Assembly: GCA_028289445.1 (NCBI GenBank) | Contig: JANQPO010000004.1 | Span: 248,001 to 312,000 of the forward strand | DNA from: Tepidamorphaceae bacterium | GTDB taxonomy: Bacteria > Pseudomonadota > Alphaproteobacteria > Rhizobiales > JAKSCL01 | Length of the DNA stretch: 64,000 nt | Reading direction: 5' to 3' | In this document: positions 23,417 through 27,353 of the stretch, in pieces | Layout of the letters: the number at the start of each line of letters is the position of its first letter | How positions within the stretch are numbered: the stretch's first letter is position 1 | The notes under the pieces: generated by a model | Told to the model about the DNA's origin: nothing | The model's database searches: none | Seen by the model: the letters and a program-made list of their open reading frames with translations, nothing else | Program-made: the position numbers and the translations under genes

Positions 23417-23989
23417 TCAATTCGGCTCTGTGATCCGTTGCGTAGCAAATCGCCGGCCAAACAAGAAATCTAGTGACACGAAACCGGGTCCCCGAAGAAC
23501 CAGGAACAAGAGCAAGAATACCCACAGTGCCCTTTGATCGAGGATCACGGCGTTGGACAGATTGTCGAACCACGCGCCGATCGTGGCGGCATCGACACCG
23601 TGAAACGCGATGTCCACATAGCTCTGGACGATGATGAAAACGATCATTCCGAGCGCCGCCAGTCGCGTAAACAAGCCGATCACAATCAAGATGGGCAGAA
23701 TAACCTCAGCGTAGGAGCCAGCGTAAACAATAAGCCCGTAGGGAAAAAAGGCGACTTGTGACGCGTCATAACCCGCCGCCTCTACAATCGGCGGCACAAT
23801 CTGAAAATAGGCCGCATCCGCAATCGAAAACGGTCCGCCTTCGAACTTTGTGAGCGCGGAATTCATGAAGTACATGAAGAGGACACCGGCAAAAACGACC
23901 CGGGCCGCAAGACCCATGAGCCACCCGTCGGTTGCCCGGTCCAACGAATCAACGAGCGTTTTATGAAGGTTGAAAAGCCCTGAAATCAT
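23417..23989 (-). CDS. bufD: DoxX-family membrane protein of the bufferin operon (BufD)
   Basis: The 190-aa protein has at least four membrane helices typical of DoxX proteins ('ARVVFAGVLFMYFMNSALTK', 'VILPILIVIGLFTRLAALGM', 'VILDQRALWVFLLLFLVLRG'). DoxX proteins recur as the last gene of bufferin-type clusters. The start overlaps the end of bufC by 4 bp, so it is translationally coupled. Its job in the cluster (transport, redox, membrane scaffold) is not established; the assignment rests on family and position. Confidence 0.82.
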   Translation of the reverse strand: MISGLFNLHKTLVDSLDRATDGWLMGLAARVVFAGVLFMYFMNSALTKFEGGPFSIADAAYFQIVPPIVEAAGYDASQVAFFPYGLIVYAGSYAEVILPILIVIGLFTRLAALGMIVFIIVQSYVDIAFHGVDAATIGAWFDNLSNAVILDQRALWVFLLLFLVLRGPGFVSLDFLFGRRFATQRITEPN

Positions 23990-24795
23990 CGATTGCCCCC
24001 TGGGGTAGGCCGCTCGATGGCCATGACGCAGCCGGTCTCGAACAGGCCCGATAGATGAAGCGATAGATCAAATTCCGAAACCTGATCGGCCGCTACATCT
24101 GCGGCCGATTGAAGCGTCTGGCCCCTCATCAGGCCCGCAAGAAACTCTCCAGCCCCGCCTGAAAGCGCGCGCGTATTTACCTCGATTGCGGGTCGCACGA
24201 CAAGCGCGTCTTCACTGGCAGAGATATCCGGCGGACTTAGTTCGGAGCGCCCCGTGCAGTCTGCCCAGATCGAGACAATTGGATACTTCGAACGCACCAA
24301 ATGCGTAGAGGGATGAAATGTGAACCTCACATCTCCGACGTCTTCGGGTGGAATGTCGCCAAGCTTTTCGATCGGCACTGATGTTGCGTCCGCTGCGTGA
24401 TACGCTTGAAGCTGCGCCCATTCGAGCCGGGCAATGTCGGCGAGATAGGGCACCTGGCTCGCCGGCGGAAAATCCGATAGGAAATAGGCAAAATCGCCTC
24501 CGAAGCGAAAGAGCAGCGGTGATCTGGGCGGGAATTGCACGGCGAATTCGCGCGCCGTTGCCCTGAAGAACTCCGATCCGACAAGTGCCTCCACGGCCGG
24601 ATAGGTCGCAGCTAACGCATCAATCTCCGCAGTCGCGACATTGTTGCGGTAGACATTGAAGCGTTTGATCGGCGGTACCGAACCTGGATGTGTCACGTCC
24701 TCGGGCACCGGGCCGTCTGGGCGACGCAAGGACGCGGCGAACGCACGTTGTTGTTTAGACAGCGATGGCACCACGTCGATCCGCCGACTTTTCAC
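23986..24795 (-). CDS. bufC: DUF2063 partner protein of the bufferin-modifying enzyme (BufC)
   Basis: The 269-aa protein carries the DUF2063 N-terminal domain: 'QQRAFAASLRRPDGPVPEDV', 'RFNVYRNNVATAEIDALAATYPAVEALVG' pattern (split here as RFNVYRNNVATAE and ATYPAVEALVG), then 'PYLADIARLEWAQLQAYHAA'. Proteins of this family pair with DUF692 oxidases and are thought to recognise the precursor peptide. The start overlaps the 3' end of bufB by 41 bp; a shorter GTG start at residue 8 or 9 would reduce that. It lies in order after bufB and before bufD. Confidence 0.88.
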   Translation of the reverse strand: MKSRRIDVVPSLSKQQRAFAASLRRPDGPVPEDVTHPGSVPPIKRFNVYRNNVATAEIDALAATYPAVEALVGSEFFRATAREFAVQFPPRSPLLFRFGGDFAYFLSDFPPASQVPYLADIARLEWAQLQAYHAADATSVPIEKLGDIPPEDVGDVRFTFHPSTHLVRSKYPIVSIWADCTGRSELSPPDISASEDALVVRPAIEVNTRALSGGAGEFLAGLMRGQTLQSAADVAADQVSEFDLSLHLSGLFETGCVMAIERPTPGGNR

Positions 24796-25642
24796 CTAAC
24801 AGGATCGCTTCTGCCGCCAAAGCCTCGTTGAACAGGGTTTGCCAGTCTGGGATGTCGGTATCCCACTCGACCAATGTCGGAAGCGCACCCGCGCTCCGAA
24901 TGGTCCGGTCATAGAGCGCCCATACGGGATCCGCAACCGCACGGTCATGCGCATCGATCAACAGCAAGCACCCCTCATCGTCGCTGTCTGGTGCGTGCCC
25001 TCCCAGATGAATCTCGCCAACGCTTTCAAGCGGGAACGCATCCAGATAGGCATGAGCCGACATGTCGTGATTTGCAGCCGATACGAAGACATTGTTGACG
25101 TCGAGCAGCAGTCCACACCCCGTGCGTTTGGAAACTTCGGACAGAAACTCCACCTCGCTCATCGTGCTCGTCTGAAAGGCAATATAGGTCGACGGGTTCT
25201 CAAGAAGCATCTGCCGTCCAAGAACGGTCTGTACTTCGTCGATGTGGTTGCAAACGGTTTGAAGAGTTTCCCGATTGTAGGGGACCGGCAGCAGGTCGGT
25301 CAGGTAGATATCTTCATGTGTGGACCATGCCAAATGCTCCGAAAACAGCCCCGGTTCGTATCGGTCCACCAGTTTTTTCAAGCGAAGAAGGTGATCTTGG
25401 TCAAGTGGCTGAGACGCACCTATCGAAAGACCGACACCATGCAGGGATAGCGGCCATTCACGTCTTATCCGGGTCAGATAATGGTGCGGCGCACCTCCGT
25501 CCCCCATGTAGTTTTCCGCATGCACCTCGAACCATCCGATGTCCGGTTTGACGGACAGGATGTCTTCGTAGTGCTCTGCCTTCAGGCCGACGCCGGCGCG
25601 TGAGGGAATTTCCGCAGCGATCATTGGATTGATGATGGGCAT
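24755..25642 (-). CDS. bufB: DUF692 iron-dependent peptide-modifying oxidase (BufB, MbnB/TglH-like)
   Basis: DUF692 enzymes are TIM-barrel multi-iron oxidases that modify cysteines of ribosomal peptides (methanobactin MbnB, TglH, bufferin BufB). From the ATG at 25642 the protein is 295 aa. Motifs in order are FEVHAENYM (38-46), HGVGLS (68-73), SEHLAWS (101-107), LENPSTY (147-153), LLDVNNVF (179-186), EIHLGGH (210-216) and VEWDTDIP (258-265); the conserved histidine, glutamate, aspartate and asparagine positions would ligate iron. Starts at 25681 or 25624 are also possible. The gene lies between the precursor bufA and its partner bufC. Confidence 0.92.
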   Translation of the reverse strand: MPIINPMIAAEIPSRAGVGLKAEHYEDILSVKPDIGWFEVHAENYMGDGGAPHHYLTRIRREWPLSLHGVGLSIGASQPLDQDHLLRLKKLVDRYEPGLFSEHLAWSTHEDIYLTDLLPVPYNRETLQTVCNHIDEVQTVLGRQMLLENPSTYIAFQTSTMSEVEFLSEVSKRTGCGLLLDVNNVFVSAANHDMSAHAYLDAFPLESVGEIHLGGHAPDSDDEGCLLLIDAHDRAVADPVWALYDRTIRSAGALPTLVEWDTDIPDWQTLFNEALAAEAILLGEKSADRRGAIAV

Positions 25643-25687
25643 TGATGGCGGACCGCATCTGACTGACGCGATCCGCCACAATCATGA

Positions 25688-26017
25688 TCAGGTTGGAAGG
25701 TCGCGATCGAGCTGCTCAAGCGATCCCGTCCGGTCGCCAGGAAGTTCAAACTGGGCGTTCGCTTCCTCGACGCCATATTTCACGCAGTCGCCCTTGGGGA
25801 CAAGTGTCCAGGCATTGCCTTGATAGTCGACGGTCGACGTTCCGGCGCAAGTCGTTCCCGGGCCGGCAGCGCAGTCGTTCTGGCCTTTAAGCGAAATGCC
25901 GTAACATTTTTCCTTCGCTTGTGCGTCAGCTGTCGTCGGTGTGCCCGCAGCACCCACAGCGACTGCCACCGCGCCTGCAATCGCGGCCGCCGTGAAGTGT
26001 TTTGTTGACTTGGCCAT
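25688..26017 (-). CDS. bufA: Bufferin-type precursor peptide (BufA1, DUF2282)
   Basis: The 109-aa product has a long signal sequence ('[16 protein letters not shown]') cut near 'ADAQA', followed by a short core with four cysteines at 38, 49, 57 and 78 in the DUF2282 pattern ('[17 protein letters not shown]', 'TTCAGTS', 'VPKGDC'). In bufferins such cysteines are converted to thiooxazoles or joined as disulfides and the exported product sequesters copper. The C-terminal stretch after C78 (about 30 residues, acidic, no cysteine) is longer than in many relatives. The operon order YHS-bufA-bufB-bufC-bufD is intact. A GAGGAGACT ribosome-binding stretch lies 7 to 8 bases before the ATG. Confidence 0.88.
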
Positions 26018-26084
26018 TTAGGAGTCTCCTCTTTTCAGCATTTTGGGATAGCGACAAGAAACATGTAAATCGGATGAACCGGTG

Positions 26085-26636
26085 TCAATCCGACTCCGGG
26101 GCAAGCGTGGTATAGGTGCCATTGTTGGCGTCGATCGCGGTCCAGAGCTTATCAGAAGCCGGTGCAGTCTCCTTCGACGACCAATTGTTGTCGGCAGTTT
26201 CGATGAATCCCGTGATGTCTTCTTCCCAGAAGTTCACGACGTTCGGCGTGATATTCAGGTAAAGCTTGCCGTCGACGATACGCCACAGATTCGGGTTAGC
26301 CGGCACCTTGCCTCCTTTCGCAAGTCCGTATGCGCAATGGCCGTCGTATTGTGGCGCATACTTCTCAGGATTCGCCAGGAATCTGTCGCGGTTTTCCTCA
26401 CTTGCAAATGCCCATTTGGCACCATTCCAATCAGCCGTGATCGACGCCTTGCCGGGGATCGCGGACGGCTGTTTCGACCCGACCGCCGATTGTTCCAGAG
26501 AGAAATACGCGACCGGATCATAGCCAGACACTGCAAACCCGGTTTCGTCGACATATTGCTGACCCGCATATGCTTGCGAATACGCAATCACGGCGAGAAA
26601 AGCGCCAGACAAATATGATGAAATACGTTTCCGCAT
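26085..26636 (-). CDS. Exported YHS-domain protein
   Basis: The ATG at 26636 gives 183 aa with a signal peptide ('SGAFLAVIAYSQAYA', cut before GQQYVDE). A YHS domain follows ('SGYDPVAYFSLEQSA', 'FASEENRDRFLANPEKYAPQ', 'DGHCAYGLAKGGKVP', 'RIVDGKLYLNI'). YHS domains are small folds often found in copper or heavy-metal contexts and may bind metal. It lies 67 bp upstream of bufA on the same strand and may be the operon's first gene. The C-terminal third (about 50 residues, 'FWEEDITGFIETADNNWS' on) has no motif I recognise. An open extension upstream to 26891 lacks conserved sequence. Confidence 0.82.
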   Translation of the reverse strand: MRKRISSYLSGAFLAVIAYSQAYAGQQYVDETGFAVSGYDPVAYFSLEQSAVGSKQPSAIPGKASITADWNGAKWAFASEENRDRFLANPEKYAPQYDGHCAYGLAKGGKVPANPNLWRIVDGKLYLNITPNVVNFWEEDITGFIETADNNWSSKETAPASDKLWTAIDANNGTYTTLAPESD

Positions 26637-27041: not shown

Positions 27042-27353
27042 TGGTGCGGGTGGTGAGACTCGAACTCACACTCCCTTGCGGGAACCAGATTTTGCTTACC
27101 AACTACGGCTTTCGCCGCTCCGCCAGATGGCGGATTTGTGGTCTGGACTTTCTCTTCACCTTACCCCGGATGCGCTCCGCGGCTTAGGTGGGTGCCGTCA
27201 AGTCTCTACACCTTTCCCTGATCGGGACTTGGCTCGGGATTGGCATCAGCCGGACTGGAAGCGTTCCCCGAATTTGACACCTGCACTGACCGGGTTTCCC
27301 CGGCAAGGACCCCATACGAAGTCTGGCGCGTCTACCAGTTCCGCCACACCCGC
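27042..27353 (-). tRNA. tRNA-Leu (probably CAA) interrupted by a group I intron
   Basis: Read on the minus strand, the gene begins GCGGGTGTGGCGGAACTGG (acceptor and D arm), runs to CCAGACT (anticodon 5' stem and U33), and resumes after the intron as CAAAATCTGG, the variable arm, the T arm GTGAGTTCGAGTCTCAC and CACCCGCACCA. GCGGGTG pairs with CACCCGC, CCAGA with TCTGG, and CCA is encoded. Exons are 27320-27353 (34 nt) and 27042-27094 (53 nt), 87 nt mature, with the long variable arm of class II tRNA. The anticodon loop CU-CAA-AA requires splicing between U33 and C34. Confidence 0.9.
27095..27319 (-). ncRNA. Self-splicing group I intron in the tRNA-Leu anticodon loop
   Basis: The 225-nt insertion ends in G, as group I introns do, and contains blocks that closely resemble the 205-nt Azoarcus tRNA-Ile intron. 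These are GTCAAATTCGGGGAA (27264-27278, P3/P4 region), GAGCCAAGTCCC (P5/P6 region), AGGTGTAGAGACTTGACGGC followed by ACCCACCTAAG (27183-27213, P7/P3/P8 core), and GAAAGTCCAGACC (P9 side). An internal guide GGGGTC lies a few bases into the intron and pairs with the exon end GACT/GACTT through U-G wobble. It is too short for a homing endonuclease gene. Confidence 0.88.

Follow-up and report, generated by a model that had tools for sequence, protein, structure and literature searches.

An exported YHS-domain protein leads a complete Buf1 bufferin operon and may serve as a thiol-redox accessory in a subset of bufferin systems

Few families of MNIO-made peptides are as large as the bufferins, whose fate after export is little understood. 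In published systems an MNIO and its partner make thiooxazoles and the exported peptide binds copper (PMC12452194, PMC12668002); in the Buf1 bufferins the modified cysteines are the two central ones, and a disulfide joins the outer pair (PMC12452194). The window, meaning the whole stretch of 64,000 nucleotides analyzed here, carries a Buf1 operon preceded by the gene of an exported YHS-domain protein, and the question raised by this locus is what such a protein does at the head of a bufferin unit. The preferred reading, which is held tentatively and at a little less than an even chance, is that of a complete Buf1 operon led by a periplasmic thiol-redox accessory used by a subset of bufferin systems.

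The five genes run on the minus strand from position 26636 to position 23417 in the order yhs, bufA, bufB, bufC, and doxX (Table 1). A gap of 67 bp separates yhs from bufA and one of 45 bp separates bufA from bufB, with overlaps of 41 bp between bufB and bufC and of 4 bp between bufC and doxX. No terminator-like site was found in the 67-bp gap, and the one weak promoter-like match overlapping it occurs at the rate of shuffled sequence. The translated bufA ORF contains four cysteines, at positions 38, 49, 57, and 78. BufB could be aligned with PDB entry 3bww and with MbnB, with the conserved His, Asp, and Glu motifs matched, and is the single BufB found in the 3.9-Mb genome; a PDB search with BufC gave no match, and the DUF2063 and DoxX matches both exceed the Pfam gathering scores. 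Judged by curated family scores, the gene set is far beyond chance and the locus is a complete Buf1 bufferin operon. The preliminary description had placed bufA–bufD consecutively on one strand behind an exported YHS gene, with four cysteines in BufA and DUF692, DUF2063, and DoxX domains in the proteins that follow; the coordinates and the Pfam and NCBIfam scores bear this out. A tRNA-Leu gene lying a short way upstream of the operon (27045-27353, minus strand) is split by a group I intron (Rfam RF00028, 56 bits; intron model 27118-27328). ARAGORN found no tRNA in the window; joining the intron flanks gives an 87-nt tRNA-Leu, whose reading as UAA or CAA varies with the exact junction.

Table 1. 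Genes of the YHS-led bufferin operon in the window
Gene	Coordinates	Strand	Product and features	Family match
yhs	26085..26636	-	183 aa; signal peptide MRKRISSYLSGAFLAVIAYSQAYA; single Cys101 in DGHCAYG; first gene of unit	NF041384 (YHS_seleno_dom) 140 bits, cut-off 70; PF04945 34.7 bits
bufA	25688..26017	-	Buf1 precursor, 109 aa; signal peptide	DUF2282 (PF10048) 82.7 bits
bufB	24755..25642	-	MNIO (DUF692) maturase	NF050167 (MNIO_BufB) 395 bits, cut-off 310
bufC	23986..24795	-	MNIO partner, PME type 1; GTG start	PF09836 (DUF2063) 85 bits
bufD (doxX)	23417..23989	-	DoxX-family membrane protein	PF07681 32.4 bits, cut-off 23.6

The BufA signal peptide and four cysteines, the family matches, and the BufB alignment together show the bufferin core (bufA–bufD) to be one further, ordinary example of a known system. 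The Buf1 operon CC3254-CC3257 of Caulobacter (DUF2282-DUF692-DUF2063-DoxX) shares with it the four core genes, their order, and the exported four-cysteine precursor, whereas the unit in the window is led by YHS, has no sigma-F-like motif above chance, and belongs to a genome without NrsF. The pairing of an MNIO with a PME1 partner is also common to the captophorins or oxazolins (fontiphorin, gonophorin), in which the two proteins put thiooxazoles on cysteines of copper-binding peptides (PMC12668002); those peptides carry EGKCG repeats, whereas the precursor in the window is a DUF2282 protein with four scattered cysteines.

Adjacency of YHS and bufA proved far more frequent than chance allows. 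Among the 385 genomes of a survey of the class, the proportions of which rest on an even draw from GTDB species, DUF2282 was found in 135, the YHS family in 116, and both in 61. At least 14 of these 61 (nine genera, eight families) have YHS next to bufA on its upstream side and in the same orientation, where copy number and genome size lead one to expect about 0.02. The same arrangement was present in four of 61 genomes centered on the order of the window, each of another family, and, outside the class but within the phylum, in three of 25 loci, all of a single family (f233). A further 75 class loci with bufA had no linked YHS, but most had been picked after the known linked loci were set aside and so give no independent rate. 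A profile of linked YHS proteins retrieved 80 loci, 25 with YHS-bufABC(D), from Kiloniellaceae, Rhodovibrionaceae, Geminicoccaceae, Rhodospirillaceae, Granulosicoccaceae, and a Chromatiales symbiont, and on a mobilizable plasmid of Thalassobaculum sp. OXR-137 the genes YHS-DUF2282-DUF692-DUF2063-DoxX-sigma70-NrsF form a single block; gene calls in these related loci are ORF-based. Two YHS_seleno_dom genes stand near each other on one strand at four places (L145 461-1505, G133:C148, G405:C122, and G400:C16).

In linked operons, mostly 130-280 nt separate the YHS stop from the first BufA cysteine codon; with about 110 nt subtracted for the signal peptide, this gives an estimated intergenic gap of roughly 20-165 bp. 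The published MNIO survey took in genes of uncertain relevance only when they lay within 10 bp of a known gene (PMC12452194), a rule that would hide genes spaced in this way; it reports further conserved genes in extremely low proportions only, YHS not being mentioned among them, and no paper joining YHS with DUF692 or with DoxX was found in the literature searched. The standing of YHS as an extra member beyond the core definition, as first described, is thus upheld by its recurrence upstream of bufA and by its absence from that survey. Co-conservation, proposed at the outset as the check on a YHS partner, holds in part: linkage is far above chance and extends over several families, but it is found in only about a tenth of the DUF2282-bearing genomes among the matches listed, and YHS is therefore a recurrent accessory gene of bufferin operons and not a core one.

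Phylogenetic analysis revealed how this neighborhood has moved. The linked YHS proteins fall into sister branches A, whose members (the copy in the window among them) have the long form, and B, with the standard form, and solo copies are interspersed among them. A single clade of all linked copies was rejected (AU p = 5.8e-67), which implies that the neighborhood was gained or lost repeatedly; taken by itself the rejection is compatible with several gains or with one old gain and many losses. On the BufB tree YHS linkage takes 14 changes, at least three of them forced by well-supported branches. The operons of Granulosicoccaceae resemble branch A in YHS, BufA, and DoxX, the DoxX proteins being 61-64% identical to those of branch A but 27-33% identical to those of the gamma operons used for comparison, and a single BufB clade is allowed (AU p = 0.17); on these sequence comparisons, the cassette appears to have crossed between classes as a whole. 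A mosaic operon in this family, with a gamma BufB and alpha YHS and BufA, was ruled out by the same DoxX identities and AU value. In family f133 a branch-A YHS precedes a distant BufB lineage, and joining these BufBs to branch A gave AU p = 0.058, which is suggestive only of a separate recruitment of the same YHS type. Most BufA proteins linked to a branch-A YHS (L071-L163) have a long tail after the fourth cysteine (approximately KYGVEExxAxFELPGDRxGSLExLxRDLP). As a mark of YHS linkage this tail fails: it is missing in the linked f133 operons and present in an unlinked operon of the window's own family (L067), and is therefore taken as lineage-specific. In one Rhodospirillaceae locus (L110 5947-9065) a branch-A YHS is convergent with the buf operon and bufB lies in several reading-frame pieces, through decay or sequencing error.

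The evidence on the role of the YHS protein lies in its residues and in its gene neighbors. It matches NF041384 over its full length at twice the curated cut-off and has its cysteine at the GxC/GxU site of that family (C101 in DGHC), the position occupied by selenocysteine (GxU) in at least one relative (PMC13188914). The matched YHS stretch, residues 61-97, contains no cysteine, and the mature protein has one cysteine, one histidine, and no methionine. The column of Cys101 is cysteine in 144 of 150 family members, and each of the 38 linked copies counted has exactly one cysteine. Branch-A copies, 77 in all, invariably read GHCA at the motif and the 10 linked branch-B copies G[FYW]CA, so that the thiol is conserved and the histidine is not. 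No in-frame TGA was found at the active site in the fetched loci, where read-through TGAs occur away from the conserved site, either toward the N terminus or in flanking sequence. The only clearly significant matches of the family in a PDB sequence search were eukaryotic axonemal chains. The window's genome has three YHS_seleno_dom copies, one of which (L070 4511-5119; G000:C18, ~139741), far from the buf genes, reads GGHG for GGHC and has lost the cysteine.

Export, a cysteine-free YHS stretch, one retained cysteine beside an unretained histidine, selenocysteine in a relative, and a thioredoxin gene between YHS and bufA in two linked operons (L235 and L253) favor a thiol-redox role over copper storage. 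By analogy with published Buf1 systems, BufB and BufC would convert the two central cysteines of this BufA to thiooxazoles in the cytoplasm, and the modified peptide would be exported via Sec to buffer copper in the periplasm. YHS would be the lead gene of a co-transcribed, copper-induced unit, and its product a periplasmic accessory protein. The conserved cysteine of this protein would, under copper stress, most probably do redox chemistry through its thiol and not serve to store copper. The obvious candidate for its target is the outer, disulfide-forming cysteine pair of BufA, and copper-damaged thiols are another. Against this reading count the many bufferin operons without YHS, which are the majority, the existence of solo YHS copies, and the single cysteine, which in the absence of a resolving one needs an external reductant. 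A recurrent exported protein with one cysteine, sometimes accompanied by thioredoxin, is a concrete candidate for a missing periplasmic step of bufferins. The reviews consulted treat NF041384 only as a selenoprotein family, whereas linkage ties the branch in the window to bufferins and offers a first testable function to a family known mainly from selenoprotein lists. It is possible, but on balance rather doubtful, that bufferins have in this branch of an orphan (seleno)protein family a redox partner of their own in the periplasm, one taken up on several occasions and disseminated as a cassette of five genes; if so, the YHS family would acquire a function for the first time, and a redox step would have to be added to the maturation of bufferins or to their release of copper.

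Of the alternatives, the one that survives best is that YHS is a general envelope-stress protein, repeatedly brought under the same promoter and having no action on the bufferin. Numerous YHS_seleno_dom genes stand alone, linkage is the less common condition and was often gained or lost, and the reading is kept alive by the solo copies inspected (Thalassospira and Rhodobacteraceae; close relatives), which have no recognizable metal-related neighbors. It sits poorly with the constant order and strand, YHS right before bufA, in both YHS branches and on the plasmid, and with the distribution of branch A, where DUF2282 accompanies YHS in 10 of 11 class genomes as compared with 125 of 374 others (Fisher p = 1.7e-4, kinship ignored); the odds ratio in class genomes is 2.9 when the YHS family is taken as a whole. 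This alternative is judged rather unlikely.

Some YHS domains occur in copper ATPases. This background, the copper-buffering type of the operon, and the His-Cys pair conserved in branch A lend some appeal to the role suggested in the preliminary description, in which YHS binds copper or another metal and gives it to, or takes it from, the mature bufferin in the periplasm. The suggestion fared badly when set against the residues: the cysteines that mark the metal-binding YHS of copper ATPases would lie inside the YHS stretch, which here has none, the mature protein offers one cysteine, one histidine, and no methionine, and linked branch-B copies have Phe, Tyr, or Trp in place of the histidine. 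On residue conservation and gene neighbors, the thiol-redox role is favored and metal binding appears improbable. That YHS is a second BufBC substrate, with Cys101 converted to a thiooxazole, was set aside as highly improbable, since the likeness of DGHCA to the EGKCG of MNIO-modified peptides, for all that the protein has a signal peptide, is encoded ahead of the MNIO gene, and could fall within a published view that MNIOs may modify proteins besides peptides (PMC12452194), is confined to branch A, where DGHCA-type motifs are equally fixed in unlinked copies, the linked branch-B copies having GG[FYW]CA without the acidic and basic residues.

The regulators found at other linked operons fit a place of YHS as the first gene of the unit. 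The window's operon has no AraC-, TetR-, or MerR-type neighbor, and the motif GTAACC-N16-CGAA for sigma-F was not above its shuffled rate upstream of YHS, so no regulatory link is claimed. Elsewhere, YHS is flanked by a divergent AraC-type gene with a Cupin_6 domain at three loci (L158, L235, and L253) and by a divergent TetR gene at two (L156 and L157), and at L155 there are a MerR gene and a cation-efflux gene upstream. One of these loci (L253 3006-4807) consists of YHS, thioredoxin, bufA, and doxX with adjoining bufB and bufC missing, so that its precursor would depend on enzymes encoded elsewhere or stay unmodified.
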